Below, piece after piece: positions 10,414 to 26,233 of a stretch of 48,296 bases of DNA. Source of the DNA: a virus; IMG/VR virus record IMGVR_UViG_3300025083_000062, positions 1-48,296 of that record; one strand, written 5' to 3'. The translations under genes were made by a program, and so were the position numbers. The notes under the pieces were generated by a model, which was not told the origin of the DNA, ran no database searches, and saw only the letters and a list, made by a program, of their open reading frames with translations. Within the stretch, counting starts at the first letter, position 1. Each line of letters begins with the position of its first letter.

Positions 10414-10500
10414 CACCTGTTCAAGTATAGGCCCAGTGGTATCAATGAGCGCAAGTTGATACCTACTGCACCCTAGAAAAGTAACAGCCTCTTTCAGGTG
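10414..10500 (+). promoter_or_regulatory. Structured 5' leader of the capsid mRNA
   Basis: A long imperfect hairpin: TAGG/CCTA (10428-10431, 10472-10475), internal loop, CAGT/ACTG (10434-10437, 10465-10468), one bulged T, then a perfect 8-bp stem GGTATCAA/TTGATACC (10438-10445, 10456-10463) with a 10-base loop. CACCTG (10414-10419) and CAGGTG (10495-10500) can close the whole element. No open reading frame of note lies in 10304-10542. It may stabilise the capsid mRNA or be bound by a protein; function unknown. Confidence 0.5.
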
Positions 10501-10542
10501 TTTAGCTTTCTCTTAAAGCCAAATATCATGGAGGATTTAATC

Positions 10543-11616
10543 ATGGCTTTTGCATCCGCATCAGGTTATACCAACCTGCCAAATGGGAACTTTTCCCCAA
10601 TCATCTATTCCAAAAAGGTGCAGCTTGCATTCAGGAAGAGCACAGTTGTAGGTGACATTACGAACTCTGAATATTTCGGAGAGATCGCAAATCAAGGTGA
10701 CACAGTGAAAATTATGAAAGAACCTGAGATCTCAGTTTCTGCATACACTCGTGGCACAACCATCGCAGCGCAAGATCTTAGTGATGACGATTTCTCGTTA
10801 GTCGTTGATAAAGCTAACTATTTTGCCTTCAAGATGGACGATATCGAAGAGGCTCATAGCCACATCGATTTCATGAACCTTGCTACCAACAGAGCAGCTT
10901 ACCGTCTTGCTGACCAGCATGACCAAGAAGTTCTAGGTTACCTAGCAGGTTACAAACAGTCTGCCCTACATGGGAATGCTGACACAGTTAACGATACTGT
11001 TAACGGTACTAAAGCAGACTCAACAGCAGGTGATGACGAACTACTTGCAGCAAACAAGCTAAACAAAGGTGACTTTGGTAACATCACAACAGCTTCTGCT
11101 GGTGACCATTCGATCCCTGTTGCAGCACGTTTGCCAGGTGCAACTGCACTACCAACAGAATACGTTTCACCAACAATGATGGTGGCTCGTATGGGTCGTC
11201 TACTTGATCAACAACAAGTTGACAAAGATGGTCGTTGGATCGTAATTGACCCTGTCATGATGGAAATCTTGATGGACGAAGATTCACGTTTCCTACAATC
11301 TGATTGGGGTGCTTCAGGCGGTCTACGTAACGGCCTAGTAATCAACAACTGGAATGGTTTCAGAGTTTACTCTTCTTCAAACCTACCATCAGTTGGTACT
11401 GGTGCTGCTACAACAGGTACAGACAACCAGAACACTGACTACGGTGTAATCGTAGCTGGTCATGATTCAGCCGTTGCTACTGCAGAGCAGATCAACAAGA
11501 CTGAAACATATCGTGATCCAGATTCATTTGCCGATATTGTTCGTGGTATGCACCTTTACGGTAGAAAAATTCTAAGACCAGAAGCACTGGTCACAGCTAA
11601 GTACAACTTGGCTTAG
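10543..11616 (+). CDS. Major capsid protein
   Basis: A 357-residue shell protein. The ATG at 10543 has an excellent GGAGG (10530-10534) 8 bases upstream; an in-frame GTG at 10498 lies in the structured leader and is rejected. Sequence features fit HK97-fold phage coat proteins of this size: an N-terminal arm, a segment V-K-I-M-K-E-P-E-I-S-V (about residues 64-74), a helical spine region around D-D-I-E-E-A-H-S (about 103-110), and a C-terminal A-domain with G-R-K-I-L-R-P-E-A. No cysteine is seen. It follows the scaffold, has its own strong promoter and leader, and is followed by a GC-rich hairpin, all consistent with the most highly expressed late gene. Confidence 0.88.
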   Translation: MAFASASGYTNLPNGNFSPIIYSKKVQLAFRKSTVVGDITNSEYFGEIANQGDTVKIMKEPEISVSAYTRGTTIAAQDLSDDDFSLVVDKANYFAFKMDDIEEAHSHIDFMNLATNRAAYRLADQHDQEVLGYLAGYKQSALHGNADTVNDTVNGTKADSTAGDDELLAANKLNKGDFGNITTASAGDHSIPVAARLPGATALPTEYVSPTMMVARMGRLLDQQQVDKDGRWIVIDPVMMEILMDEDSRFLQSDWGASGGLRNGLVINNWNGFRVYSSSNLPSVGTGAATTGTDNQNTDYGVIVAGHDSAVATAEQINKTETYRDPDSFADIVRGMHLYGRKILRPEALVTAKYNLA

Positions 11617-11676: not shown

Positions 11677-12396
11677 ATGGTTAATTACGTTACACTAGTA
11701 AATGAACTACTAACTAGACTTAACGAGGTTACCCTTGCTGTAGGGGGTAGTGGCTTTACTGATGTACGTAACGTACAGGCACTAGCTAAACAAGCTGTAA
11801 ATAACTCCATTAGAAATATCTTACAGACAGGTCAGGAATGGCCTTTCCTAAAAACTACGTACACTCAGACATTGACTGCAGGTACAAGAGAGTATGACTT
11901 TCCATCTGACTTCTCTAGGGCAGACTGGCAGACTTTCTACATCAAACAACTTTCAGGTGGGACTAATATTCCTACAGCTATGAAAGTTATTTCTTATGAC
12001 GAGTATGTTCAAAAGTATCGTCAAGGAGATGACACAGGAGATCAGACAGGTATATCTGCTCCTACTCTTGTTTATCAAACAAACGAAGAGAAGTTTGGTG
12101 TAACACCTATTCCTGATGCAGCATACGAAATTGAGTATGTGTACTGGTCATTTCCTGCAGACCTAAGTGCTTACGATGATGTAACAGTTATTCCTGATAG
12201 ATTTAAACATGTAATCATTGATGGTGCTATGATGTACATGATGAGATTTAGATCTAATGAGCAGAGTGCTGCAGTACACCAAGGCGTGTTCCAAGATGGT
12301 ATTAAGTCTATGAGAAGAGTTCTTGTAGACGAACCTCTAAGAATAAGATCCACAGTAGTTGAAAGAGCTAATGTAGGTTTGAGTAGAGTAAGCTAA
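11677..12396 (+). CDS. Head-tail adaptor / tail tube A-like protein
   Basis: A 239-residue protein. The N-terminus is helical (L-V-N-E-L-L-T-R-L-N-E-V, residues 7-18), followed by W-P-F-L-K and R-E-Y-D-F-P, the pattern seen in podovirus adaptor proteins (SU10-adaptor / T7 gp11-like) that bind under the portal. The later part around residues 150-200 holds D-A-A-Y-E-I-E-Y-V-Y-W and a helix with paired Met residues. It sits between capsid and nozzle genes as expected. The stop shares one base with the next ATG (TAATG). Confidence 0.78.
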   Translation: MVNYVTLVNELLTRLNEVTLAVGGSGFTDVRNVQALAKQAVNNSIRNILQTGQEWPFLKTTYTQTLTAGTREYDFPSDFSRADWQTFYIKQLSGGTNIPTAMKVISYDEYVQKYRQGDDTGDQTGISAPTLVYQTNEEKFGVTPIPDAAYEIEYVYWSFPADLSAYDDVTVIPDRFKHVIIDGAMMYMMRFRSNEQSAAVHQGVFQDGIKSMRRVLVDEPLRIRSTVVERANVGLSRVS

Positions 12397-13952
12397 TGGC
12401 AGACAACTTAGGCTCCTTTAAAGTATTTGCTCAGGGTGGATTGAACCTGAACAGGGACGTGTTGTCACAAGGTGAAACACAACCTGGTTCTGCTATCTCT
12501 TTGCTTAACTACGAACCTGCTACTACTGGTGGGTATAGACGTGTAAGTGGTTACACCAACGACTACGGCACAGTACCTGGGGATAGCTCTGGCAGTGTTC
12601 TTGGTGTAGCAGTAGCTGCTGGTATTAACGATGGTATTCTTGCTGCACGTAAACCTTCTACAGGTAATAACTACTTACACTATTGGGATGCTACAGCAGA
12701 GTCTTGGACAGCAGTGACTACTTCTGGTTCACCTACAATGACAGGTGTATCTAAAGTAAGGTTTACTAGGTTCAACTGGGGTACAGCAAAAGTTATTTTA
12801 ACAGATGGTGTAAACCCTGCAGCTACCTACGATGGTACAACTTACACACAGATTACAGCTACAGAAGCTCCTGATGATCCTAAGTTTGCTGCAGTATTTA
12901 AGAACCACATGTGGCTTGCAGGTGATCCTGCTGAACCTCATAACGTTTACTTCAGTGCACCTACAGACGAAACAAAGTGGTCACCTGCAGATGGTGCTGG
13001 TGTAATTAACGTAGGTTTTCCTGTTGTAGCAATCAAACCATTTCGTGATTCTTTGTTTGTGTTTGGTACGAACAACATTAAAAGGATTGTAGGCAACAAT
13101 ATCTCAGACTGGGCTGTACAGCACGTAACAGATGACCTTGGATGCCTAGCATCAGACAGTGTTATTGAGATTGGTGGTGACCTAATCTTCTTATCACAAG
13201 ATGGTATCAGACCTATTTCAGGTACAGATAAGATTGGTGACGTTAACTTGGAAACACTAACCAAGAACATCCAATCTTTTGTTTCTGACGTTATCTTTAA
13301 CAATGACCTGGATGCTGTATCTTCTGTAATCATCAGAGGTAAATCTCAGTTTAGATTGTTCTACAATACAGACAGTGGTGCTGCTCTACTTGGTGGCCTA
13401 CGTTTAGGACAACAGGGTGGAATTGGATTTGAGTTTGGTCAGATGATTGGCATTGAAGCTACATGTGCTGACAGTGGATACATCGACAAAGAAGAATACG
13501 TCATTCATGGGGATACCTCAGGAAAAGTTTATAGACAGGAATCAGGTAACAGCTTCGGTGGTAATAACATCGTAAGCCTTTACCAAACACCATTCTTGCA
13601 CATGCAAGATCCAGAGCAACGTAAGATTATTCATACTGTTGCTACTTACCTTAGATCAGAAGGTGATAACGAGATCATAATGTCAGTTATCTTTGACTAT
13701 GATGATACCACCATTCTTAACCCAACCAACTTTATTCTTACAAACGAAGGTGCAGCAGCCTACTATAACGAGGCTATCTACGATGAACCTTCTAATACAA
13801 CAATATGGAGTGGTAACCCCTCTCCTGTCCAAAGAGTAAATGTTTCAGGTTCGGGTAAATCAGTTTCTTTTAGATATGTTACAAATGACACGAATGCTGC
13901 ACACAGTGTCCAAGGCATTGTTGTGACGTTTGGAGTGGGGGATAGATTATAA
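12396..13952 (+). CDS. Tail nozzle (tail tube B-like) protein
   Basis: A 518-residue beta-rich protein. It starts with the segment N-L-N-R-D-V-L (residues 17-23) and Y-R-R-V-S-G-Y, then repeated beta-strand blocks of about 50 residues (for example F-K-N-H-M-W-L-A-G and F-R-D-S-L-F-V-F-G) that read as a beta-propeller, as in T7 gp12-like and P22 gp10-like nozzle/hub proteins that close the tail of podoviruses. Only two cysteines are present, in sharp contrast to the fibre genes downstream. The order adaptor-nozzle-fibre supports a short-tailed virion. Coupled to the adaptor by TAATG and followed one base later by the fibre gene. Confidence 0.8.
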   Translation: MADNLGSFKVFAQGGLNLNRDVLSQGETQPGSAISLLNYEPATTGGYRRVSGYTNDYGTVPGDSSGSVLGVAVAAGINDGILAARKPSTGNNYLHYWDATAESWTAVTTSGSPTMTGVSKVRFTRFNWGTAKVILTDGVNPAATYDGTTYTQITATEAPDDPKFAAVFKNHMWLAGDPAEPHNVYFSAPTDETKWSPADGAGVINVGFPVVAIKPFRDSLFVFGTNNIKRIVGNNISDWAVQHVTDDLGCLASDSVIEIGGDLIFLSQDGIRPISGTDKIGDVNLETLTKNIQSFVSDVIFNNDLDAVSSVIIRGKSQFRLFYNTDSGAALLGGLRLGQQGGIGFEFGQMIGIEATCADSGYIDKEEYVIHGDTSGKVYRQESGNSFGGNNIVSLYQTPFLHMQDPEQRKIIHTVATYLRSEGDNEIIMSVIFDYDDTTILNPTNFILTNEGAAAYYNEAIYDEPSNTTIWSGNPSPVQRVNVSGSGKSVSFRYVTNDTNAAHSVQGIVVTFGVGDRL

Positions 13953-16900
13953 ATGGCAGGTTATACAAGACAAAGTGCTGCTGATATTGTTTCTGGTCAG
14001 GTTATTAAAGCTGAACCAGTACACAATGAATTTGAACAGCTTGTAGCAGCATTTAGTGCAAGCACAGGTCACAGACATGATGGCACTTCTACTGGAGAAG
14101 GTGGCCTCATTCCTCTAATTTCAGACACTAATCAGTACAGCAAAGTTGTTGTTGATACAGCTAACAACAGAATTAATTTCTTTACTAACGTTGGTAGTGC
14201 AGCAGTAGAGCAGGTAAGGATACAAGATGGAGCTATTGTTCCTGTCACTGATGAAGATATTGATCTGGGTTCTCCGACTGCTGAGTTTAAAGATCTTTAC
14301 ATTGATGGTGTGGGTTATATCGACACTCTGGCGATTCACGAGAATGCTACTATTACAGGTAACCTTACCGTTAATGGGAATACTACTCTTGGTAGTGACG
14401 ATAGTGATACTGTTACAGTAAATGCTGATGTTGCCTCAGACCTTATCCCTTCTGCAGATGCAACGTATGATCTAGGTGCTACAGGTAGTGAGTGGAATGA
14501 TGCTTACATTACTGGAACAGCAAATATTGACAGCCTTGTAGCTGACACAGCAGACATTAATGGTGGTACTATTGATGGTACTATAATTGGTAATACGACT
14601 GCTGCTTCTGGTGAATTTACAACTTTAGGATCTAGTGGTAACCTTACTGTTGGTGGAACTGCAGGAATTACAGGAAATACTACACTGGCAGGTACACTGA
14701 GTGTTACAGGTGCTGCAGGTTTTGCTGATACAGTAACTGTGCCAGGTCTTTCTGCCACAGGAACAGCAACTCTAGCTACGGTAGATATTAATGCAGGTAA
14801 TATTGATGGGACTGTTATCGGTGCTTCTAGTGCTGCTGCAGGTAGCTTTACTACAGTTAGTACGACAGGACAGGGTACTTTTGCTTCAGTCGATATCAAT
14901 GGGGGCACTATTGACGGTGCTATTATTGGTGGGACTACAGCAGGTGCTATAACAGGTACAACAGTTACAGCTAACACTTGCTTCGTAGGTGATGTTACTG
15001 GTGCTGTTTCAGGTAATGTAACAGGCAACCTAAATGGTAATGCAGTAGGTTGTCACACAGGAAACTTTGATGGTGTAGTTGGTGCTACAACACCTGCTGC
15101 TGTAACTGGCACAACCATCACAGCCAATACTTGCTTTGTTGGAGATATAACAGGTGATGTAACAGGTACAGTCACAGGAAACGTGACTGGTGACTTGACT
15201 GGTGATGTAACTTCAGTAGGTACTTCTACTTTCTGTGATATTAACATGACAGGTACAGCAGGGCTTGATATGGGTTCTGCTAAAATTACCTCTCTTGGGA
15301 CACCAACCCTTGATGGAGATGCAAGTACAAAGTGTTATGTAGACCAACAAATCAGTAACCTAGTTGGTGGTGCTCCTGGTGCTCTTGATACTCTGAGTGA
15401 ACTAGCTGATGCTATCAACAATGATGCAGACTTCTATACATCCCTTACAACTTGCTTAGGTACAAAACTAGCATGTGCAGGTGGAACTATGTCAGGGGAT
15501 CTTTCCCTTGGTGCTAACAAAGCTACATCTACAGCTACACCTGCTACAGATGATACATTGACTCGTAAGGGTTACGTTGATACACAAGATGCTCTAAAAC
15601 TAAACCTGACTGGTGGAACCATGTCGGGTGCTATTGCTATGGGTACATCAAAGATCACAGGACTAGGTGATCCTACTCTAGCACAAGATGCAGCCACAAA
15701 GACATACACAGATACTCAACGTGATACAAGACTAGCTTGTTCTGGTGGTACTGTAACTGGCACTATTGATATGGGTGCCAATAAAATCACTACGACTTAT
15801 ACACCTACTGATGCTGCTGATTTGACTACGAAGACTTATGTTGACGGTATTCTACAGTCAGCTACAGATGCAGCCACTTCAGCTACTTGTGCTGCTAATA
15901 GTGCAACTGCTGCAGCTACATCTGAAACAAATGCAAGTAACTCAGCTACTGCTGCTGCTACTTCAGCAACAAATGCAGCTACTTCTTACGATGACTTTGA
16001 TGACAGATACCTTGGTGATAAAGCTTCAGACCCATCAGTAGACAACGATGGAGATGGATTACTTACTGGTGCATTATACTGGAATACTACAGACAATGCT
16101 CTAAAAGTATACACAGGATCTGCTTGGAACTCTGCAGCATTTACCCTTGGTGATGCTCTTACTGCTATTTCTGATGATACTAGCCCCACCCTTGGTGGAA
16201 ATTTAGATGCTAACAGTAACTGTATTACAGGTGTAGCAAACATTTGTGCTACCAACCTTTGTGGTACACTGACAGGTAACGTTACTGGTAATGTCACTGG
16301 TTGTGTTTCAACACTGGGTAATCATGATACAGATGACCTAGCAGAGGGGACAAACCAGTACTTTACAACAGCTAGAGTAGACAGCCACCTATCAGGTGGT
16401 ACAGGTGTTACTTACACATCTGGTGCAATAGCTATTGGACAGGCTGTTGGTACAGCAGACAACGTATGCTTTGGTTCTGTCTGTGTTTCAGCAAATCCAA
16501 CTTTAGCTTGCCAACTTGCAACCAAAGAGTACGTTGATACAATTGCTGCTGCAGGGTTACACTACCATGATCCTGTTCGTGTTCAAACAACAGCCAGCTT
16601 ATCTGCTACGTATGACAATGGGTCATCAGGTGTAGGGGCAACACTTACTAACAACGGCACCCAAGCTGCAATAAGTATTGATGGTGTGGCACTTTCAAGT
16701 GCAGATCGTGTTCTTGTTACAGAACAAACTAATGCTTATGAAAATGGTGTTTACACAGTTACTACTGTAGGATCTGGTTCTACTAACTGGGTTCTTACTC
16801 GTTCTACAGATACCGATAGTTCAGCACCATCTGATCCTGATGCACTAGGACAAGGTGATGCTTTCTTTATCAAAGAAGGTGACACAAATGCAGGTCACTT

Positions 16901-18275
16901 AGATGTTTTAAGTACTCAAGGTACAATTACTTTCGGTACTACAAACATTGTATTTGCTGAAGTTGCTGAGACCTCTATCTACTCAGCAGGTAATGGTATT
17001 GCACTTACTGGAACATCATTTAGTGCTGATGCAGGTACAGGTGTTACTGTTGATGGTAATGGAATTAACATTGGACAAGCAGTAGGCACATCTGATACAG
17101 TAACCTTTGCCAGAGTATGTGCTCCTGTCACAGGTGCTGTTACTGGTAATGCTGACACAGCAAGTGCTTGGGCTACAGCTAGAACACTGTGTGTCTGTGG
17201 AGCAGTAACAGGTTCTACCTCAGTAGATGGTTCAGGTAACTTCACAGTCAATACAACTGCTACTTCTGATCCTACACTTTGTATCTGTGGAGATGCTACA
17301 GGTTCTGCTACATTCACAAACCTTGGTAATGCTAACCTTAGCCTCACTATTGCAGACGATAGCCACAACCACACAGTAGCTAACGTTGATGGACTAGCAA
17401 CATGTTTGTCAGGTAAAGCTGCAACAAATGGTTCTACCTCTAACAACTTTAGTGGTGCATGTATTTGTGCAGCAAATTGTGTTAGAGGTCAATTCGTATA
17501 CTCAGCAGGTAGTGTGTGTGCAGCTACTTGTGTAGGAGCTAACTGCTGTGTAAAAGCACCAGTAGTTTGTGCTTCATCTGCCCTTAGAGGTACTTGTCTG
17601 GCAGCAGGAACCTGTGTCAATGCCCCAGAAGTCTGTGCTACTACTTGGCTTAAAGTAGGTGGCAGATGTATCTGTCAATCAGCAGGTGACTACGGTTCTA
17701 TCTCTGTTGTAGGGGGTGATGGTAACTGGCCTGGATATAGTATTGCAAACCACACTGTCTTTATGGCAAACGGCACTGATGCAGGAATTTATAATGATAC
17801 TACAAATGAATGGTATTTAAAAGCCACATGTAATGCAGGTACATGCCTACATTATAATGGTAGTGGTATGCTTTGCACTACATCTTATGGTGCAAGAACA
17901 GAGAACTGCCACTGTGTAGAGTGCTGTCTAAAGACAAATGTTGTTTGTGGTGTTACAACCAGAGGTACAACAGCTTGCTTCACTGACTTCAACTCTACTT
18001 CTGACTGCAGATGCAAAGACAACATTGCTACAGTAGAAGATGCTTACACAAAACTAGGTCAGATCAGAGGTGTGAACTATAACTGGAAAGATTCTGGTAA
18101 GTACACAATGGGTGTTGTTGCTCAAGAAGTAGAAGAAGCATTCCCAGAACTTGTTACAACAGATGACGATGGTTACAAATCAGTCAACTATAATGGCTTG
18201 GTAGGTGCACTCATTGAAACTGTGAAGTGTCTACAAGGTAAAGTAGAGGAACTAGAGAATGGCTCTAAAGGTTAG
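13953..18275 (+). CDS. Cysteine-rich tail fibre with C-terminal S74 chaperone
   Basis: A 1440-residue fibre. Residues 1-45 look like a tail-attachment domain (V-H-N-E-F-E-Q-L, H-R-H-D-G-T). Long Asn/Thr/Gly repeats follow (T-G-N-V-T-G type), with A-T-K-x-Y-V-D segments and an Ala/Thr/Ser coiled region near residues 630-690. The C-terminal ~100 residues are a peptidase S74 intramolecular chaperone: S-D-C-R-C-K-D-N-I carries the self-cleavage Ser and Lys, then G-V-V-A-Q-E-V-E-E-A-F-P. Such domains trimerise the fibre and cut themselves off. I count 47 Cys, none before residue 343 and densest at about 1085-1350 (clusters such as A-N-C-C-V-K). It overlaps the next gene by 17 bases. Confidence 0.9.
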   Translation: MAGYTRQSAADIVSGQVIKAEPVHNEFEQLVAAFSASTGHRHDGTSTGEGGLIPLISDTNQYSKVVVDTANNRINFFTNVGSAAVEQVRIQDGAIVPVTDEDIDLGSPTAEFKDLYIDGVGYIDTLAIHENATITGNLTVNGNTTLGSDDSDTVTVNADVASDLIPSADATYDLGATGSEWNDAYITGTANIDSLVADTADINGGTIDGTIIGNTTAASGEFTTLGSSGNLTVGGTAGITGNTTLAGTLSVTGAAGFADTVTVPGLSATGTATLATVDINAGNIDGTVIGASSAAAGSFTTVSTTGQGTFASVDINGGTIDGAIIGGTTAGAITGTTVTANTCFVGDVTGAVSGNVTGNLNGNAVGCHTGNFDGVVGATTPAAVTGTTITANTCFVGDITGDVTGTVTGNVTGDLTGDVTSVGTSTFCDINMTGTAGLDMGSAKITSLGTPTLDGDASTKCYVDQQISNLVGGAPGALDTLSELADAINNDADFYTSLTTCLGTKLACAGGTMSGDLSLGANKATSTATPATDDTLTRKGYVDTQDALKLNLTGGTMSGAIAMGTSKITGLGDPTLAQDAATKTYTDTQRDTRLACSGGTVTGTIDMGANKITTTYTPTDAADLTTKTYVDGILQSATDAATSATCAANSATAAATSETNASNSATAAATSATNAATSYDDFDDRYLGDKASDPSVDNDGDGLLTGALYWNTTDNALKVYTGSAWNSAAFTLGDALTAISDDTSPTLGGNLDANSNCITGVANICATNLCGTLTGNVTGNVTGCVSTLGNHDTDDLAEGTNQYFTTARVDSHLSGGTGVTYTSGAIAIGQAVGTADNVCFGSVCVSANPTLACQLATKEYVDTIAAAGLHYHDPVRVQTTASLSATYDNGSSGVGATLTNNGTQAAISIDGVALSSADRVLVTEQTNAYENGVYTVTTVGSGSTNWVLTRSTDTDSSAPSDPDALGQGDAFFIKEGDTNAGHLDVLSTQGTITFGTTNIVFAEVAETSIYSAGNGIALTGTSFSADAGTGVTVDGNGINIGQAVGTSDTVTFARVCAPVTGAVTGNADTASAWATARTLCVCGAVTGSTSVDGSGNFTVNTTATSDPTLCICGDATGSATFTNLGNANLSLTIADDSHNHTVANVDGLATCLSGKAATNGSTSNNFSGACICAANCVRGQFVYSAGSVCAATCVGANCCVKAPVVCASSALRGTCLAAGTCVNAPEVCATTWLKVGGRCICQSAGDYGSISVVGGDGNWPGYSIANHTVFMANGTDAGIYNDTTNEWYLKATCNAGTCLHYNGSGMLCTTSYGARTENCHCVECCLKTNVVCGVTTRGTTACFTDFNSTSDCRCKDNIATVEDAYTKLGQIRGVNYNWKDSGKYTMGVVAQEVEEAFPELVTTDDDGYKSVNYNGLVGALIETVKCLQGKVEELENGSKG
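14553..14930 (+). repeat. Coding repeats in the fibre shaft
   Basis: Three copies of a module encoding D-I-N-(G/A)-G-x-I-D-G-x-(I/V)-I-G begin at 14553, 14784 and 14892, each followed by an A-A-(S/A)-G-(E/S)-F-T-T-like strand in the first two. They mark the repetitive beta-structured shaft just before the first cysteine of the protein. Confidence 0.7.
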
Positions 18276-18474
18276 TGGCACAACTGTTATTGACGACAGT
18301 AAAAACATTCCTTCAGGAACACCATCAGTGCAAGGGACGATAGTGACAGCTACCGTCCTTACTGCACCTTCTGGCACTACAGCTAATAGACCTGGCTCTC
18401 CAGCAACAGGGCAACTTTACTTTGATACTGATGAAGGAACATTGGTTGCTTACAATGGAACCGAATGGGTTTGA
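18259..18474 (+). CDS. Mini fibre-base protein, paralogue of the next gene's N-terminus
   Basis: A 71-residue protein that aligns without gaps to residues 1-69 of the protein at 18505 (shared G-T-T-V, A-P-S-G, S-P-A-T-G, L-Y-F-D-T-D-E-G). It has no cysteine, whereas its paralogue has five in the same stretch. This type of module is usually the tail- or fibre-attachment end of adhesins, so the small protein may be a stand-alone base or adaptor, or a relic of a fibre swap. Its start overlaps the S74 fibre gene by 17 bases. Confidence 0.7.
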   Translation: MALKVSGTTVIDDSKNIPSGTPSVQGTIVTATVLTAPSGTTANRPGSPATGQLYFDTDEGTLVAYNGTEWV

Positions 18475-18504
18475 TTCACGATAGTCTTAGGACGGAGAAT
18501 ATAA

Positions 18505-20625
18505 ATGGCATATAAGATTAATGGCACTACGGTGGTCGATAACAGCAGGAACGTCTGTGCCTGTTGTGTTACCTCGTGTTGTATTACAGCAAGCACAAAG
18601 CTTGATGCACCCTCAGGAAATACAGCCAGTAGGCCAAGTTCTCCTGCTACTGGTTCTTTGTATTTTGATACTGATGAAGGATCTCTTTTATCTTATGATG
18701 GTTCTGACTGGGCTGCTGTAGGAGGTGGAGAAGAAGTTATTGAAACACCATATATTGTCGGTAAATTTTCACATGAACATAGCCCAGAAACAAGTGCAGG
18801 TGGAGTTTGGTGGACTAATAGACGAACATCAACAGGTATAGTTTTTGGTGGTTCTGGAACTTATGAGACTTGGGAATACTCTAGATTCGTTTGCTGTGGT
18901 TGCCAAGTTAATCCTTCAGCAAATGGCCATTGTGTTTATTTAGCTTGGGATAGAACTAATCTTCCTGCTAAGACTAGTGAGGGTAGTGTTACTTCTGATT
19001 ATCATATGGAAATAGCAGGAGACATGTATTGTACTTGTACTAGACCTGAAGGTCAATCAGGCAATTTTGCAAAGATTGTTCCTTCTGCATTTCCATACGG
19101 AGGTCTCTGTGTAGGATCTTGTAGTCAAGGTAGGGTTCTATATAATGTTAGAACTGGTAGTTTACGACTATTCCCAGGTTTTGTTGATAATGATGATGTA
19201 AGGGGTTGTTATAGAGTTTTCACTAGAAACTATGAGATTTCTACAAACTGTGCTGATGTGTGCTGGGCAAAACAAGCATTTTTAACAAATGGTAGATTTG
19301 CATACTGTGGAAATTCTGGCGCAGGTACTGTTGCATCAGGTGTTCATTGTTGTGGTATTTCAGTAAGTGGTTCTGCATACCACAATTCTGGTGCTAATAA
19401 AATATGTAAATTATTTCAAAATAATATAGTTGTTACTGTAGGTTTTTGCCCAGAATCTGTATTTGATTGTACCTGTTGTTTTGCAGCCAGTGCTGGTTGC
19501 ATAAAGTCTTATGCTTATACTCGGTATGATGGTTCTTTAGGTGGATACATGGATTATTTTTATCCACATATCGACTATGCTAACAGAATGCTTGTTATGG
19601 CTACGTTTTATACTGGAGGTTGCTTCCAAGGATTTGCAAAGTATTGTTTGTGTGATGGAGGAAATGCAGCTTGTGTTCAATGTACATACCTCGTTCAATG
19701 CCCTGTCCAAAGTACTATAGGGTACAACTCAAACACTTATCAAGATAGTTACGGTGGTTGTTTTCCTTATATTAGGCAAGGTGTTTTTTGGTGTGATAGG
19801 TTTATTTTTATACCTAGTTGTTATGGGAACAGTGCATCCAATAGAATAGCTATTTTTAATTTTAATTACAGTGATAATTGTTGTGCTGGAAAATCTTGTG
19901 TTTATAGATTTTGGTGTAACCAAGCTCAAACTTATAGTATTCTTGGAGTTCTTATAGATCATAACTGCCATTTAAGAGTGTACACAAGCTTCCTATCAAA
20001 CTGTTGCTGTGGTCTTCTTGAACATGTATGGACTGCTCCTTGTAATTTTGAATGGCACTGTTATCCTGCTCAATACGTAAACGAACTAAAACAAATATGT
20101 GGATCTGGATGTTATGCAAATTCACCAACTTGTGTTGCATGTCCTGACGGTGGTACTCTATCTGGTTCAATAGGAACACCTGAACATATTTATCAAGATC
20201 CTTACACTTGTAAAATTGTAATGAATCCTTACACTATTAGAAGAGGTGCCTCAAGGACAAGTCTATCTTTTGCTTTTGATCCACCTGCTAATGATGCAGC
20301 AAACTGCACAGTTATATTTAAAGCATTTGACAGTAGTAAAAATGGTTACTGTATTATTAGAGAATGTAAAGCAAGTTGTATTTACCCATGTGTTACTTGT
20401 CTTTCTAAATTCTACTGGATGGGTTTTTGTGGAAATTGTTATACTTTGAATTGTTCTCCTGCATGTCAATGTCTTAGTCCTGGAGGAACTGCTTGCTTTG
20501 GTGTTTGCCCAGGGTATCAATCTTGTCTAATAGGTCAAATCTTTTCAGATAATAGTGCTTGTGGTAATAAACAGTTTAAAAGTGGTCCAACAGGTAACTT
20601 AAAATGTAACTATGCAGGATCTTAA
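18505..20625 (+). CDS. Cysteine-saturated second fibre / receptor-binding protein
   Basis: A 706-residue protein with 65 Cys by my count (about 9%). Residues 1-75 are the attachment module shared with the preceding gene; the rest is beta-rich with many Trp/Tyr/Phe and short repeats that read as a propeller- or sandwich-like receptor-binding region. Cysteines are spread through the protein, often paired or tripled (C-A-C-C at 18-21, C-C at 25-26, S-N-C-C-C-G, D-C-T-C-C-F). GGACGGAG precedes the ATG. Position next to the fibre makes a tip or side-fibre role likely. Disulfide crosslinking or metal binding are the obvious possibilities; the receptor is unknown. A promoter for the sugar cassette begins just after its stop. 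Confidence 0.8.
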   Translation: MAYKINGTTVVDNSRNVCACCVTSCCITASTKLDAPSGNTASRPSSPATGSLYFDTDEGSLLSYDGSDWAAVGGGEEVIETPYIVGKFSHEHSPETSAGGVWWTNRRTSTGIVFGGSGTYETWEYSRFVCCGCQVNPSANGHCVYLAWDRTNLPAKTSEGSVTSDYHMEIAGDMYCTCTRPEGQSGNFAKIVPSAFPYGGLCVGSCSQGRVLYNVRTGSLRLFPGFVDNDDVRGCYRVFTRNYEISTNCADVCWAKQAFLTNGRFAYCGNSGAGTVASGVHCCGISVSGSAYHNSGANKICKLFQNNIVVTVGFCPESVFDCTCCFAASAGCIKSYAYTRYDGSLGGYMDYFYPHIDYANRMLVMATFYTGGCFQGFAKYCLCDGGNAACVQCTYLVQCPVQSTIGYNSNTYQDSYGGCFPYIRQGVFWCDRFIFIPSCYGNSASNRIAIFNFNYSDNCCAGKSCVYRFWCNQAQTYSILGVLIDHNCHLRVYTSFLSNCCCGLLEHVWTAPCNFEWHCYPAQYVNELKQICGSGCYANSPTCVACPDGGTLSGSIGTPEHIYQDPYTCKIVMNPYTIRRGASRTSLSFAFDPPANDAANCTVIFKAFDSSKNGYCIIRECKASCIYPCVTCLSKFYWMGFCGNCYTLNCSPACQCLSPGGTACFGVCPGYQSCLIGQIFSDNSACGNKQFKSGPTGNLKCNYAGS

Positions 20626-20662: not shown

Positions 20663-20679
20663 CAGTCCTTTTTGGACTG
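20663..20679 (+). promoter_or_regulatory. Hairpin in the leader of the sugar cassette
   Basis: CAGTCC (20663-20668) and GGACTG (20674-20679) form a perfect 6-bp stem with a T5 loop. It lies right at the predicted transcript start and has no U-tract after it, so it may protect the 5' end rather than terminate. Confidence 0.4.
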
Positions 20680-20707
20680 TAAAGATAATAATAAAAAGAA
20701 GAAGACT

Positions 20708-21634
20708 ATGAAAACTGTTTTTATGATTGATGGTGGAGCAGGTAGGGCTATAGCAGCTATTCCTGCCCTCATCAAGTACTCAAAGAAAAACAAAGACTTT
20801 CGTATTATGGTGCATGGTTGGGACTCTCTATACTGGGGTATTCCAGAACTACATGATAAAGTCTTTAACCCAGATCAGAAAGGTGCCTTTGAACAATTCT
20901 TTATGGATGCAGATAGAGTTATATCTCCAGAGCCATATAGAGTACCAGGGTACTACAAACAAGAAAAGTCTCTTGCTGAATCATTTGATTACTTAATTAA
21001 TGAGACTGATGATCATTCTGATTTAGGTGATCCTACCCTTGTAACAAACAGGAATGAAGAACTTCAAGCAGCTAACTTTATGCAGCAAGTTAGGCAACAG
21101 CAGCAGAAGCAGAAGACTATTGTTATTCAACCTTTCGGTAGATCCATTGAAAAACCACAGGAAGGTGTTTTATTAGACCAATCTTCTCGTTCTATTAATC
21201 CAGATACATACCTTAAACTAGCAAAGAAACTAGCAACAAAGTACAACCTAGTTTTGTTTGCTGAGAAAAACTTCTGGATGCCTGAAGACACATACACCAT
21301 GAAGCCTGAAGCAGACCTTCGTATGTGGGCCTGTTTTATTGAGGCAGCAGACTACTTTATTGGATGTGACTCTGTAGGCCAACATATGGCAAAGGCTTTA
21401 AGTAAACCTGGATCAGTTATCATGGGGTCTACTTTTGCTATAAACACTACGTACCCTAATCACTTTAATATTATAGAAAGGAACGTTCCTAAAGTATATT
21501 CACCTATTCGTATATCAGGTCTTGAATCTCATTTAGCAGATCGTTTTAATGAAGGAACTGTTGAGTTTACAGACGAAGAAATAAACAAAGTATATGCTGA
21601 CATTGTAAAAGATATCGAAAAGAAGGTGAAGTGA
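20708..21634 (+). CDS. GT9-like glycosyltransferase (heptosyltransferase-type)
   Basis: A 308-residue protein. A short N-terminal beta-alpha start (V-F-M-I-D-G-G-A-G-R-A-I-A-A-I-P) and the C-terminal motif F-I-G-C-D-S-V-G-Q-H-M-A-K-A-L (about residues 217-231) match the family 9 glycosyltransferase pattern of a sugar-nucleotide pocket, as in ADP-heptose:LPS heptosyltransferases. With ADP-heptose genes downstream, transfer of heptose to a lipopolysaccharide or other glycan is the natural inference; the acceptor is unknown. ATG 20708 follows a GAAGAAG stretch; an in-frame TTG at 20672 sits in the hairpin and is rejected. The next gene starts 1 base after the stop. Confidence 0.65.
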   Translation: MKTVFMIDGGAGRAIAAIPALIKYSKKNKDFRIMVHGWDSLYWGIPELHDKVFNPDQKGAFEQFFMDADRVISPEPYRVPGYYKQEKSLAESFDYLINETDDHSDLGDPTLVTNRNEELQAANFMQQVRQQQQKQKTIVIQPFGRSIEKPQEGVLLDQSSRSINPDTYLKLAKKLATKYNLVLFAEKNFWMPEDTYTMKPEADLRMWACFIEAADYFIGCDSVGQHMAKALSKPGSVIMGSTFAINTTYPNHFNIIERNVPKVYSPIRISGLESHLADRFNEGTVEFTDEEINKVYADIVKDIEKKVK

Positions 21635-21635
21635 G

Positions 21636-23348
21636 ATGAATATTTTAGGAATTAACCCAGGTCACAATGGTTCTGCTGCTTTACTGGTAGATGGTGAATT
21701 AAAGTTTTATATAGAAGAAGAAAGATTTTCTCGTACTAAATATGACGGGAACCCTTTTAGAGGTATCCTTGAAGCACTTAAGTATGGGATTGATATTTTA
21801 ATTCTAGGAGGTACTCACCCAGAGTTTCCTCAGTTACCTTGGACAGGCGAAGACCCATACACTGCCCTTGTTCGTAAACATAACCCTGATGTTAAAGTTG
21901 TAAATCTTGCAAATGCACATCATGCAGGTCATGCAGCAGGAGCTTTCTACAACTCAGGTTTTGATGATGCTGTAGCTGTCGTTGTAGATGGGGCAGGAAC
22001 AAGACAAGGAATAAAGGTCACAGATGATTTTACTAATTATGGATTTGAGACAGAATCTATTTTTGACTGTGACTACGAAGAAGGTGTAAAAGCTATTTAC
22101 CAATCTTTTGGAGGAAACCCAGATACTCAAAGGATTACCAACGAAAGTATATTCATGGACTCAGCAGTAACTATTGTAAAAGCTTACGAAGCTGTATCTG
22201 AATATCTTGGTTTTGGTTATATTGAAGCAGGTAAAACAATGGGCCTTGCTCCTTATGGTAAGGCAACAGATAAAATCCCACCTTTATTTGTTAACACTAG
22301 AGGGGATAAAAATATGTTTTTCCCTAACTACCCTGCAGGTGCTCACATTGACCATGAACGTTGGGACTACTTAGTGCTCAGAGATGACCCAAAAGCTTGG
22401 CATAAAGATCCAAGTAGAGTCACTGATGCAGCAAAAGATCTAGCTTGGGCAGTTCAAGATCAAACACAAACTCTTGTTGGAGACTTGATCGAAAAAGCTG
22501 TAATGATGTCTGGTAAAAAGAACGTTGTTATTGCTGGTGGTTATGGTCTAAACTGCATGGCAAACTACTACTACAAGAAACGTTTTCCTGACCTTAATAT
22601 CTTTGTTGACCCTATCTCACATGATGGTGGCACAGCCCTTGGTCTTGCAAGACTAGTCCATCACATAGAAACAAAAGATAAAACAAAACGTCCACTAGAC
22701 ACTCTGTACCTTGGTCCTGAACGTGAAGAGTCTTACGACTTTGGTGACATTGAAACAAAGAAAGTAAAACCTTCTGATGTAGCAAAGCTTATCTCTGAGA
22801 AGAATATCGTAGCTTTGTATCAAGGACGTTCTGAGGCTGGACCTCGTGCACTAGGGAATCGTTCTATCCTGTACGATCCCACAGATCCTAATGGTAAGGA
22901 CACAGTAAACAAGGTCAAAGGACGTGAGTGGTTTAGACCATTTGCTGGCTCTATGATGCAGGAACATTTTGAGGAGTGGTTCGACACCTACGGTATGGAA
23001 GAGTCACCATTCATGATGTATGCAATGGACTTCAAGTTAGAGAAGCATGGTGAGTGTCCTGCTATCACACACGTAGACGGTACATGTCGTATTCAAACTG
23101 TGACTAAAGAACAGAATGAAACATATCATACTCTGATTGATGAGTTCCGTAAGATTACTGGTGTACCTATTCTATTCAACACTAGCTTCAACTTAGCAGG
23201 TGAGCCACTGGTAGAGACACTAGATGATGCTATGAGAACCATTAAGAACTCAGACATCAACTATTTGTATTTACCAGAGATGGGTAAGTTGGTACACTAC
23301 CCCTACAATAATTCAGTTGTAGAAGATCTAGGAGAAGAGGCTGCTTAA
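21636..23348 (+). CDS. NodU/CmcH-family carbamoyltransferase
   Basis: A 570-residue enzyme of normal length. The N-terminal Kae1-like domain has N-A-H-H-A-G-H (93-99) with the metal-binding histidines and V-V-D-G-A-G (about 116-121); the C-terminal domain has G-R-S-E-A-G-P-R-A-L-G-N-R-S (about 398-411), the family hallmark. These enzymes transfer a carbamoyl group from carbamoyl phosphate, via carbamoyl-AMP, to a hydroxyl of a sugar or other small molecule. Its neighbours suggest carbamoylation of a sugar made or transferred by the cassette. AAGAAGG lies upstream. Its stop codon shares the palindrome TTAA (23345-23348) with the stop of the convergent phosphatase gene. Confidence 0.9.
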   Translation: MNILGINPGHNGSAALLVDGELKFYIEEERFSRTKYDGNPFRGILEALKYGIDILILGGTHPEFPQLPWTGEDPYTALVRKHNPDVKVVNLANAHHAGHAAGAFYNSGFDDAVAVVVDGAGTRQGIKVTDDFTNYGFETESIFDCDYEEGVKAIYQSFGGNPDTQRITNESIFMDSAVTIVKAYEAVSEYLGFGYIEAGKTMGLAPYGKATDKIPPLFVNTRGDKNMFFPNYPAGAHIDHERWDYLVLRDDPKAWHKDPSRVTDAAKDLAWAVQDQTQTLVGDLIEKAVMMSGKKNVVIAGGYGLNCMANYYYKKRFPDLNIFVDPISHDGGTALGLARLVHHIETKDKTKRPLDTLYLGPEREESYDFGDIETKKVKPSDVAKLISEKNIVALYQGRSEAGPRALGNRSILYDPTDPNGKDTVNKVKGREWFRPFAGSMMQEHFEEWFDTYGMEESPFMMYAMDFKLEKHGECPAITHVDGTCRIQTVTKEQNETYHTLIDEFRKITGVPILFNTSFNLAGEPLVETLDDAMRTIKNSDINYLYLPEMGKLVHYPYNNSVVEDLGEEAA

Positions 23349-23992
23349 GGTAGCCTGTTCACAAATTGAAGGAGGTTATCGAAAACCTTAGTCTTCTTTC
23401 TTAACTTCTCTTTTGAGAACTTCTTTAGCTCTCCTTCAGTGTCCACCCCATGACCAGTTCTTACTAAGATTGGGGTGGCACCAATTCTCTCAGCAGCTTT
23501 AAGGTCAGACATCTTATCACCTACATAGAAACCTTTATCTTTAAACCTAGTCTTACCGCCAAATATTTCTTTCTCTACTCTGTGAAACATACCTAAGTTA
23601 GGCTTGGCATAAATGTCCTCTTTCAATGAAGACTCAGAATAGAAAAGACCATCAATAGTGTAGATACCTGCCTGTCCAAAGATTTCAAACATACGTTGGT
23701 GTACAGCTTCTACTTGCTCATGTGTTTGTAATCCTTTAATAATACCACCCTGGTTAGTTAATATTACCACTTTGTAACCTTTCATACGAAGCTTGTGGAT
23801 AGCTGCTAGGGAGTCAGGGTATACTTCAAAGTCTTCAGGATCTGTGATGTAGTGGCCTTTATCTACGTTGATGACACCATCACGATCTAGTCCTACAATA
23901 GATTTAGGAAAGACTGTAGGCCAATCTGGGGGTAACTCTTGTTGAGGTTGTTGACTTGGTTCTTGTGTAATAATATGTTTGAATCTGGACAT
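23345..23992 (-). CDS. gmhB: GmhB-like D-heptose bisphosphate phosphatase (HAD family)
   Basis: A 215-residue HAD hydrolase. G-L-D-R-D-G-V-I-N (34-42; D36, D38), L-T-N-Q-G-G (78-83), K130-P131 and V-G-D-K-M-S-D (157-163) are the four HAD motifs in the form typical of histidinol/heptose-bisphosphate phosphatases, which remove the 7-phosphate from D-glycero-D-manno-heptose 1,7-bisphosphate. The zinc loop of bacterial GmhB (two Cys pairs and a His) is absent: residues 118-129 have no Cys. It has an extra N-terminal ~28 residues rich in Gln/Pro. It is the only leftward gene in the left 35 kb, converging with the carbamoyltransferase gene and separated by 17 bases from the divergent nucleotidyltransferase gene. 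Confidence 0.8.
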   Translation of the reverse strand: MSRFKHIITQEPSQQPQQELPPDWPTVFPKSIVGLDRDGVINVDKGHYITDPEDFEVYPDSLAAIHKLRMKGYKVVILTNQGGIIKGLQTHEQVEAVHQRMFEIFGQAGIYTIDGLFYSESSLKEDIYAKPNLGMFHRVEKEIFGGKTRFKDKGFYVGDKMSDLKAAERIGATPILVRTGHGVDTEGELKKFSKEKLRKKTKVFDNLLQFVNRLP

Positions 23993-24009
23993 ATTAGGAT
24001 CTTTACCTC

Positions 24010-24420
24010 ATGAAGAAAGTTTTTGTTAATGGTGCATTTGATGTACTGCACTCTGGACACCTAGATCTCCTTGATTTTGCAGGGATGTTAGGTGGTCATT
24101 TGCTAGTAGCTATTGACACAGACAGGCGTATTGAGTATAACAAGGGTACTGGAAGACCTTTTAATCCTTTGTCAATACGTAAACATATAATGTCTATGTT
24201 GAAGCCTGTCAATAGTGTCAGAGTATTTGATACAGACGAGGACTTGGTAGGTATTATAAAAGCTTATCAGCCTGATGTAATGGTAAAAGGATCTGATTGG
24301 AAGGGAAAGACAATACTTGGGGAGGAGTACTGCAAAGAAATAGTATTCTACGAGAGAACCAATGGGCAGTCTACCACAAAAGCAATCGAAGATTTTATTA
24401 CTAGGCGACAGTTGTTATGA
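24010..24420 (+). CDS. hldC: Heptose-1-phosphate adenylyltransferase (HldE C-domain type)
   Basis: A 136-residue nucleotidyltransferase of the TagD/RfaE2 family: N-G-A-F-D-V-L-H-S-G-H (7-17) with the H-x-G-H catalytic motif at 14-17, and E-R-T-N-G-Q-S-T-T (about 115-123), the sequence typical of heptose-1-phosphate adenylyltransferases. It would convert D-glycero-beta-D-manno-heptose 1-phosphate and ATP to ADP-heptose. In most bacteria this is the C-terminal half of HldE; here it is a separate gene placed before the kinase, with a 59-base out-of-frame overlap. It starts 17 bases from the divergent phosphatase gene. A cytidylyltransferase specificity cannot be excluded. Confidence 0.82.
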   Translation: MKKVFVNGAFDVLHSGHLDLLDFAGMLGGHLLVAIDTDRRIEYNKGTGRPFNPLSIRKHIMSMLKPVNSVRVFDTDEDLVGIIKAYQPDVMVKGSDWKGKTILGEEYCKEIVFYERTNGQSTTKAIEDFITRRQLL

Positions 24421-25120
24421 TGAATACCACACAGGCACTGTAACTAGAATAAGCCCAGAGGCACCTGTGCCTGTCTTTGATCTTACCTCAACCGTAATCA
24501 AAAGGGGTATGGCATACAACGTCTACAACAACTTAGTTAATCTGGGTGCTAGAGTAGACATCATAACAGAGTACAGAGAACGTAAACACAGATACGTTGA
24601 AGATAAGACTGGTCAGCAACTGATCAGAGTAGATGAAAAGATTAAGACTGAGCACATAGATACAGCAGACGAAGATGTAAGTATGTATGATGCTGTTGTT
24701 ATCTCAGACTACAACAAAGGTTTTATAGAAGATAACGACATAAAAGATTTCAGAGCTAAGTATAACGGCCCTATCTTTGTAGATACTAAGAAGACTAACC
24801 TAGCTCAGTTTGATGGCTGCTTCGTAAAGATAAACCAGTACGAACTGGAAGCAGCAGAAACACTAACAGACGAACTTATCGTCACATACGGCTCAAAGAA
24901 AGTCGAGTATAAGAACAGAACTTACCTACCCCCTAGTGTAGAAACTCATGATGTGTGTGGTGCAGGAGATACATTCCTTGCGGGTCTTGTATTCAACTAT
25001 CTAGATACTTATGATATAGACAAGGCTATAAAGTTTGCAATGGATGCAGCAGCCATAACTGTCCAACACAGAGGAGTCTATGCTCCTACACTAACAGAGG
25101 TAACACAACATGCGACTTGA
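24362..25120 (+). CDS. hldA: Heptose-7-phosphate kinase-like (PfkB family, HldE N-domain type)
   Basis: A 252-residue PfkB-family kinase, shorter than the ~310-residue kinase half of HldE. K-I-L-L-L-G-D-S-C-Y-D-E at residues 10-21 matches the HldE opening strand, R-I-S-P-E-A-P-V-P-V-F follows as in HldE, and D-V-C-G-A-G-D-T (about 198-205) holds the catalytic Asp and anion hole. It would phosphorylate D-glycero-D-manno-heptose 7-phosphate at C1. The only usable start is ATG 24362, inside the preceding gene; the shared 59 bases are read in two frames. Shortening appears to be in the middle and in the substrate lid, so activity should be tested before being assumed. Confidence 0.78.
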   Translation: MGSLPQKQSKILLLGDSCYDEYHTGTVTRISPEAPVPVFDLTSTVIKRGMAYNVYNNLVNLGARVDIITEYRERKHRYVEDKTGQQLIRVDEKIKTEHIDTADEDVSMYDAVVISDYNKGFIEDNDIKDFRAKYNGPIFVDTKKTNLAQFDGCFVKINQYELEAAETLTDELIVTYGSKKVEYKNRTYLPPSVETHDVCGAGDTFLAGLVFNYLDTYDIDKAIKFAMDAAAITVQHRGVYAPTLTEVTQHAT

Positions 25121-25466
25121 AGGCTTCGTTAAGAAGGGCTGGGGTTCTGAACTTATATGGGTAACAAATGACGAGTATTGTAGTAAGTTTCTATCTTTTA
25201 ATACTGGTGCTAAATTCTCTATGCACTTCCACAAAGATAAGAAAGAAAGTTGGTACGTTCTATCTGGCAAGTTTGAGGTTCTTTGGATCGACACAGAAGA
25301 CGCCACCACACACGTTGAGTCCTTGGGTGAGGGCGATGCCTGGACGAACCCGACTCTTGTACCTCATCAAATCATTTGCTTAGAAGAGGGAACAATACTA
25401 GAGGTCTCTACCCCTGATTCTGTAGAAGATAATTACAGAGTAGCAAAAGGTGACAGCCAGTCATGA
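25110..25466 (+). CDS. Cupin, mannose-6-phosphate isomerase-like
   Basis: A 118-residue single-domain cupin. K-G-W-G-S-E-L-I-W (9-17) corresponds to the K-P-W-G-x-E opening of ManC/phosphomannose isomerase-type cupins, and H39, H41, E46 plus a later His (in V-P-H-Q) supply the metal site. It may isomerise or epimerise a sugar phosphate in the cassette; a replacement for the missing GmhA isomerase is an attractive but untested idea. It overlaps the kinase gene by 11 bases and the epimerase gene by 4. Confidence 0.7.
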   Translation: MRLEGFVKKGWGSELIWVTNDEYCSKFLSFNTGAKFSMHFHKDKKESWYVLSGKFEVLWIDTEDATTHVESLGEGDAWTNPTLVPHQIICLEEGTILEVSTPDSVEDNYRVAKGDSQS

Positions 25467-26233
25467 AAATACTCGTCACTGGGAGTAATGGCTTCATTGG
25501 TCAAAACATGGTCAATGCCCTGACACCACACCACGAAGTGGTAAAGAATGAGTGGGGCATGTCCTTTCCTAAGGTAGAAGGATTGGACTGGGTAGTACAC
25601 TTAGGGGCTATTAGCTCCACAACTGAGACAAACATCTCTAAGATATATAGACAGAATGTAGAGTTCAGCATTAAGTTGTATGAAGAATGTATCAAGCATA
25701 ACATTAAGTTTCAGTTTGCTTCCAGTGCTTCAGTCTATGGACTAAAGTCAGACTTCAAGGAGACATCTCCTGTTGATCCTCAGAACCATTATGCTCGTAG
25801 TAAGGCATTGTTTGAAAAGTATGTAGAGTTTAGAAATGCTGATATCACTACTCAGATATTTAGATACTTCAACGTACATGGCCCCCACGAGGAGCACAAA
25901 GGAAACCAAGCAAGTCCCTTCACCAAGTTTATGGGACAAGCTAAAAAGACTGGTAAGATAAAACTGTTTAAAGGTTCTCCTAAATACTTCAGAGACTTTA
26001 TTCACGTAGGTAAAGTTGTGATGGATCAGCAAAGATTCTTTGATGTAGACGAGTCAGGTATATGGAATTTTGGTACAGGCAATCCTCGTAGCTTCTACGA
26101 TGTAGCCCTAGAAGTCTCAGACAAGACTGGTGCAACTATAGAGTTTATTGCTTTCCCAGAGAATTTAAAAGGTAATTACCAAGAGTTTACTAAAGCAGAC
26201 ACAACAAAGCTTAGACAGACTTTAGCATTATAA
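25463..26233 (+). CDS. hldD: ADP-heptose 6-epimerase-like SDR protein
   Basis: A 256-residue extended short-chain dehydrogenase/reductase. G-S-N-G-F-I-G (7-13) binds NAD(P), S-S-A-S-V-Y-G and Y-A-R-S-K supply the Ser/Tyr/Lys catalytic set, and F-R-Y-F-N-V-H-G-P with E-E-H-K-G-N-Q-A-S, R-D-F-I-H-V and Y-Q-E-F-T-K-A-D match the specific pattern of HldD, which converts ADP-D-glycero- to ADP-L-glycero-D-manno-heptose. It is somewhat shorter than E. coli HldD (about 310 residues). Coupled to the cupin by an ATGA overlap; last gene of the cassette, 11 bases before the ejection protein gene. Confidence 0.82.
   Translation: MKILVTGSNGFIGQNMVNALTPHHEVVKNEWGMSFPKVEGLDWVVHLGAISSTTETNISKIYRQNVEFSIKLYEECIKHNIKFQFASSASVYGLKSDFKETSPVDPQNHYARSKALFEKYVEFRNADITTQIFRYFNVHGPHEEHKGNQASPFTKFMGQAKKTGKIKLFKGSPKYFRDFIHVGKVVMDQQRFFDVDESGIWNFGTGNPRSFYDVALEVSDKTGATIEFIAFPENLKGNYQEFTKADTTKLRQTLAL

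Follow-up and report, generated by a model that had tools for sequence, protein, structure and literature searches.

Cysteine-saturated virion adhesins coupled to a glycosyltransferase and ADP-heptose gene cassette in marine phages: a candidate S-glycosylation module

A precedent for the heptosylation of bacterial adhesins is TibC, which hyper-heptosylates its substrates on Ser, and the BAHT enzymes to which it belongs contain an iron finger built of four conserved Cys (PMC4358343). Sugars linked to cysteine (Cys) are known from the glycocins (sublancin, pallidocin and glycocin F type), the best-documented case of S-glycosylation in bacteria (PMC6405829; PMC12457901). Here we describe a viral locus that recalls both systems, located in the IMG/VR virus record IMGVR_UViG_3300025083_000062 (48,296 nucleotides, the whole of which is referred to as the window). 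It comprises a tail fiber and an adjacent presumed virion adhesin, both saturated with Cys, followed by a GT9-like (heptosyltransferase-fold) glycosyltransferase (GT), a carbamoyltransferase and genes related to ADP-heptose synthesis. At the level of sequence it is firmly established that the two proteins are saturated with Cys, that this saturation is conserved, and that it is coupled to the GT cassette across unrelated protein families and phages.

The locus resembles the systems formed by TibC/Aah and their adhesins TibA/AIDA-I in that an enzyme with heptosyltransferase fold, predicted in the window to be fed with ADP-heptose, is encoded beside an adhesin, and in that TibA/AIDA-I carry very many acceptor sites per adhesin, as proposed for the adhesins of the window. 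Conversely, the acceptors of BAHT enzymes are Ser while Cys is proposed here; TibC has about 390-400 aa and the four-Cys iron finger, whereas the GT of the window is shorter (308-320 aa) and contains 3 Cys in total, one of them before the conserved start, too few for such a finger; and BAHT adhesins are autotransporters, in contrast to a phage virion protein accompanied by an added carbamoyltransferase. The glycocins would share with the window the use of the Cys thiol as sugar acceptor, but they differ in size, being small peptides, in bearing just one or a few sugars (glucose, GlcNAc), in the family of their glycosyltransferases and in lacking heptose or carbamoyl genes. The closest genomic counterparts are the heptose or "LPS" (lipopolysaccharide) clusters of cyanomyoviruses (P-SSM2 PSSM2_307-313, S-SSM7, S-CAM1, S-CAM3), which have in common with the window the order Cys proteins, GT, carbamoyltransferase, HldE parts, cupin and epimerase. 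These clusters are annotated as sugar or hypothetical genes, and their Cys proteins (8-12% Cys; PSSM2_304/306 and SSSM7_114-116 are examples), labeled "hypothetical", belong to other sequence groups than those of the window. The partial literature collection that was searched yielded no paper on Cys-rich phage fibers or phage S-glycosylation, in agreement with the view, put forward in an earlier sequence-only reading of the window, that no system of this kind had been described.

The S74-type tail fiber (13953-18275; all features are on the plus strand unless stated) was identified by PF13884 and tail-fiber PHROGs and has 1440 aa with 47 Cys (3.26%), and the presumed adhesin that follows (18505-20625) has 706 aa with 65 Cys (9.21%), exactly the numbers that the sequence-only reading had estimated. 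The N-terminal residues of the fiber align with fibers of cultured Roseobacter and Pelagibacter phages (HMO-2011-type roseophages, pelagiphages). Residues 1-342 contain no Cys, the first being residue 343 (nt 14979), so that the Cys are confined to the distal part (14979-18275, residues 343-1440), with 27 of the 47 located in residues 1101-1400; this restriction to the distal adhesin parts had already been recognized in that reading, and the enrichment is conserved. The S74 intramolecular chaperone domain (18000-18158, residues 1350-1402), confirmed at the C-terminus by PF13884 (50.6 bits vs a cut-off of 22), itself contains Cys (SDCRCK within TSDCRCKDN), as had been proposed. The neighbors are Cys-poor, also as anticipated: the nozzle protein (12396-13952) has 2 Cys, the open reading frame (ORF) at the coat-protein position (10498-11616) has none, and the remaining ORFs of the window have mostly 0-2%. 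The 706-aa protein shows 8 adjacent CC steps, one CCC and CxC clusters, and begins with a module of ~75 aa (18505-18729) that has five Cys and contains the near-invariant NVCACCVTSCCITAS. A stand-alone ORF of 71 aa located between the fiber and this protein (18259-18474) repeats the module without any Cys (54% identity, E 1e-20) and represents a natural control within the same genome.

An artefact of DNA composition was ruled out, as the coding frame shows an excess of TGY codons (0.092 vs 0.055 expected from positional composition; 0.127 vs 0.059 in the homolog L013) and the first 342 codons of the fiber include none; the in-frame excess over base composition indicates that selection acts on the protein. 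PHROG and Pfam relatives of the Cys proteins were limited to the phage module at the N-terminus and Gly_rich_2, and AlphaFold models of the 706-aa protein (three sequences) had a pLDDT of 25, making the geometry of the Cys unreadable.

The association between Cys saturation and the GT was examined in locus scans that covered up to 80 loci per query, these loci being contig fragments and not independent observations. Within the lineage of the window (at least 80 loci with its nozzle protein, counting only those with at least 8 kb of downstream sequence), a Cys-saturated ORF was present in 18 of 18 GT-positive and in 0 of 6 GT-negative loci. After removal of identical copies (15 GT-positive vs 4 GT-negative) the odds of this split arising at random were 1/3,876, relatedness ignored. 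Complete S74 fibers contained 0-1 Cys in GT-negative loci and 13-58 Cys in 15 of the 18 GT-positive loci; where GT-negative fibers could be aligned, Cys was found at only 1 of the 900 Cys columns of GT-positive fibers, the residues being A, T, S, N or L instead. The sequence-only reading had considered that homologs with ordinary Cys content, together with models showing Cys neither paired nor clustered, would speak against its proposal. The first of these points holds in part: such homologs do exist, but only in phages lacking the GT, and this makes them a clue.

The same pairing was observed outside this lineage. Among 50,697 phage records the GT was found in 23, including P-SSM2, P-SSM5, S-SSM7, S-SSM6a, S-CAM1, S-CAM3, Sf-FS3 and single-cell marine viruses, and in the GT-positive stretches examined Cys-saturated ORFs (7.6-11.6%) are encoded upstream of the GT, followed by carbamoyltransferase and heptose genes. 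A reverse search with the Cys protein of S-SSM7 matched 21 records, each of which either carries the GT or, in the case of AG-345-E02, represents another contig of the same cell; since AG-345-O18 and AG-345-P14 encode Cys-saturated ORFs of their own, all 23 GT records are paired with Cys-saturated proteins. In a scan anchored on the GT (69 IMG/VR loci with the GT and at least 3 kb of upstream sequence), 55 loci encoded a virion-type ORF saturated with Cys that precedes the GT in the same orientation, in most cases by less than 2 kb (the Cys match of L317, a non-fiber protein, was left out of this count), and the carbamoyltransferase was found in most of the loci. As a control, 80 loci around an unrelated S74 fiber contained no GT and no ORF of at least 300 aa above 2.2% Cys.

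Virion-type proteins with more than 6% Cys among the fetched sequences formed 39 groups by sequence similarity, 33 after removing those whose records have neither GT nor carbamoyltransferase in the stretch searched, and the Gly_rich_2 adhesin domain is represented among them. Because most of these records were fetched via the GT, it is the number of groups, and not co-occurrence, that the grouping reveals; with more than 30 dissimilar groups, Cys follows the GT and not one sequence family. These groups, together with about 20 more loci of the window's own family, rule out an oddity restricted to the window. Phages found through a Cys motif, and not through the GT, pointed in the same direction: L050, L053 and L061 encode divergent GT homologs within the gene blocks of unrelated Cys-rich fibers (hhalign 96.6-98.9%), L052 and L054 encode the window-type GT, L064 gave a weak GT match, and carbamoyltransferases adjoin the Cys-rich fibers of L063 and L056. 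A GT9-like ORF next to the L056 fiber was not supported (hhalign 2%), and matches of a Cys motif to GTDB genomes were apparently due to chance, mostly in GC-rich genomes. In a phage of a different type, a 678-aa protein with 6% Cys (L499:6109-8142) has Thr/Ser tracts (TTTTTT, STSTSTST) and no GT within 9 kb.

In IMG/VR about 20 loci share a second protein of the 706-aa type, with 6.9-12.7% Cys in all complete copies and a maximum of 145 Cys in 1141 aa. NVCACCVTSCCITAS is retained in the first 75 residues, for which identity is mostly 75-95%; the bodies, in contrast, range from 494 to 1156 aa and in most pairs share 23-40% identity. No residue is better conserved than Cys, with an identity of 0.85 vs 0.60 overall in the closest pair (L003/L005) and of 0.54-0.66 vs 0.26-0.43 in distant pairs; a separate comparison of homologs, used to analyze replacements, gave 0.84 vs 0.60. 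In pooled homologs of the S74 fiber, hydrophobic residues are enriched at positions +/-1 from Cys and further Cys at positions +/-2 and +/-4, an alternation like that on the exposed outer face of beta-strands. The N-terminal module also occurs, as MAIKVNGTTVIDDSRNLVNIASGAG or similar and with few or no Cys, in many of 80 marine phages with an unrelated S74 fiber. The statement that ordinary fibers are Cys-poor was borne out by cultured relatives (CRP-2, CRP-212, CRP-603, CRP-227 and HTVC033P), which have 0-3 Cys in their fibers. Phages of the HMO-2011 type and RCA roseophages (CRP-1, -2, -9, -13 and -212) agree with the window in the fiber N-terminus, the nozzle and synteny; they have 0-3 Cys in the fibers read and no GT cassette in the records searched.

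The window GT (20672-21634, conserved start at 20708; phrog_8954) was modeled by AlphaFold with a pLDDT of 93.8, and its best Foldseek structures were HepII (1psw), TibC (4rap/4rb4), WaaC and the GT9 protein 3tov, with a TM-score of up to 0.64 to TibC. Its assignment to GT9 is supported by the fold (GT-B, with heptosyltransferases as nearest structures) and not by the Pfam score, as PF01075 reached 14.3 bits vs a gathering threshold of 22 and TIGR02201 matched weakly; among relatives, 6 of 9 match PF01075 at E<=1 (best 1e-4). A PDB sequence search with the GT gave nothing useful, the relation being visible by fold search only. The protein does not belong to the SunS-type S-glycosyltransferases, given its GT9-like fold, and no other GT family was recognized in Pfam or NCBIfam.

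Downstream are encoded a NodU-type carbamoyltransferase (21636-23348; PF16861 5.9e-62, PF02543 4e-20), a GmhB-like D,D-heptose 1,7-bisphosphate 7-phosphatase on the minus strand (23345-23992; NF006506 1.1e-36), the adenylyltransferase (heptose-1-P adenylyltransferase, 24010-24420; TIGR02199 1.5e-27) and kinase (heptose-7-P kinase, PfkB, 24362-25120; TIGR02198 6.4e-36) domains of HldE, a cupin (25110-25466; PF07883 5e-8, weak WbuC-type match) likely related to sugar modification, and an HldD-like ADP-glycero-manno-heptose 6-epimerase (25463-26233; TIGR02197 1.5e-64). The four ADP-heptose functions (HldE kinase and adenylyltransferase, GmhB and HldD) were assigned from the best NCBIfam models, all below the equivalog cut-offs, and GmhA was not found among the window ORFs scanned. 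The tail-gene region of a marine podovirus genome contains, at 20672-26233, a nearly complete ADP-heptose set together with the GT and the carbamoyltransferase, a cassette that the sequence-only reading did not mention.

Related cassettes vary in content. That of S-SSM7 (L184:25390-29000) includes 2OG-Fe(II) oxygenases, a second carbamoyltransferase and a tryptophan-halogenase-like gene, which suggests further decoration chemistry. In the same genome the 111-aa protein annotated as "phosphoheptose isomerase" (L184:31055-31390) seems to be misnamed, its best match being the EcbF/BcbF capsule phosphatase model, and the "cysteine dioxygenase" of the cyanophage L188 (37235-37591) seems to correspond to the cassette cupin. 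In the GT-positive loci with low Cys L310, L314, L316, L317, L337, L343 and L345, genes whose beginning resembles P-loop sulfotransferases (GLPRSGSTLLS) and methyltransferase genes adjoin the GT, possibly forming another kind of decoration cassette.

Based on this evidence, we consider it marginally more likely than not that the locus is an adhesin-glycosylation module of the phage, in which (carbamoyl-)heptose becomes S-linked to the Cys of the virion adhesin; heptose as the sugar, the adhesin as the acceptor and Cys as the acceptor residue are each inferred. The Cys-saturated fiber tip and the 706-aa protein would be the substrate half of this module. ADP-heptose would be made by the enzymes encoded at 23345-26233, with the host supplying the first isomerase step, and the TibC/HepII-like GT would transfer heptose onto the virion adhesins within the infected cell; the carbamoyltransferase would decorate the sugar. 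The acceptor atoms would be Cys side chains, about 1 residue in 10, and the resulting dense sugar coat of the adhesin may participate in, or shield, host recognition. That Cys saturation tracks the GT and not one protein family is what would be expected if Cys accepts the transferred sugar.

The sequence-only reading had offered disulfide locking, metal binding and thiol exchange as purposes of the Cys; none received specific support, and under none of them would Cys saturation be expected to accompany a heptosyltransferase/carbamoyltransferase/ADP-heptose cassette in phages and sequence families that are unrelated. Viruses are well known to use extracellular disulfide locking, the main rival explanation, and disulfides within or between fiber chains might form outside the reducing cytoplasm and lock the adhesin, with the heptose cassette serving another purpose (for example, O-glycosylation of the same adhesin or a change in host LPS) and co-traveling as a host-recognition module. 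The status of Cys as the most conserved residue and the many CC and CxC clusters favor this explanation, which nevertheless does not predict the coupling of Cys and GT across unrelated sequence families. Moreover, the differences in Cys count between homologs are even in 39 cases and odd in 35, in some pairs the difference is limited to one Cys column, and the residues found in place of lost Cys are mostly W, E, H, N or Y and not A, S or I, suggesting exposed positions. Such bulky or polar replacements and the mixed parity fit poorly with obligate core disulfides, though they are compatible with partial disulfides, and no thiol-oxidoreductase was recognized among the window ORFs scanned. Altogether, we regard disulfide locking as rather unlikely.

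A role in the host envelope appears more unlikely still. GT9 enzymes typically build the LPS core, and the GT, carbamoyltransferase and heptose genes could alter host LPS or O-chain, for instance against superinfection, while the Cys-rich adhesins recognize the relevant hosts or surfaces. For pelagimyophages, the GTs of the host-recognition cluster were interpreted as enzymes that modify the host O-chain (PMC7029224), a precedent in favor of this explanation and contrary to adhesin glycosylation. On the other hand, the Cys protein often precedes the GT by 50-2000 bp in the same orientation, the top fold matches include the protein heptosyltransferase TibC, and envelope modification gives no reason for Cys saturation. 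Metal ions (Zn or Fe, for example) bound by the CC, CxC and CCC clusters might stiffen the fiber, and metal sites are known in the fiber tips of T4-type and P2-type phages, where they are His-based. Metal binding is nonetheless highly improbable here, as no conserved CxxC knuckle pattern is apparent in the alignments, Cys are kept at many separate places in bodies only 23-40% identical, bulky residues replace lost Cys, and there is no link to a sugar cassette.

Several other observations weigh against glycosylation of the Cys. In the window lineage, 3 of the 18 GT-positive loci have Cys-free S74 fibers, and in the GT-anchored scan 14 of 69 loci lack an ORF with more than 5% Cys save the non-fiber protein, some of their fibers having 3-3.6%. 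Fragments L062, L065 and L499 encode Cys-rich fibers with no GT or carbamoyltransferase on the stretches available, and a generic scan of DNA for CCxCxCC, whose matches were mostly out of frame, found a few Cys-rich proteins (4.5-6%) without GT. Ser and Thr are not preferred where Cys is lost, the Cys of the S74 chaperone, which is expected to be cleaved off, are left unexplained, and the Cys S-glycosyltransferases known to date differ from the window GT in fold family. Finally, GT9 enzymes are expected to have a catalytic-base Asp in the N-lobe (Asp-110 type of WaaC/TibC), and none of the first 56 residues of the GT is an invariant Asp, invariant Glu75 and Asp221 being candidates; therefore, its enzymatic activity is only predicted.

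How marine phages bind their receptors is poorly understood, and abundant phages often have adhesins without any match. The coupling described here offers a testable function for the sugar/heptose cassette of P-SSM2-type cyanophages and for many nameless Cys-saturated proteins. It is a close call, falling marginally short of even, that many unrelated phages carry an S-glycoprotein coat in which each adhesin bears dozens to hundreds of (carbamoyl-)heptoses S-linked by a phage heptosyltransferase, a combination of sugar, linkage and density that would be previously undescribed. Even if the Cys are disulfide-bonded instead, few large virion proteins known to us would be as rich in Cys as these. 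If they are S-glycosylated, viruses would use, at extreme density and in culturable phages, a protein modification hitherto documented mainly in a small number of small bacteriocins.

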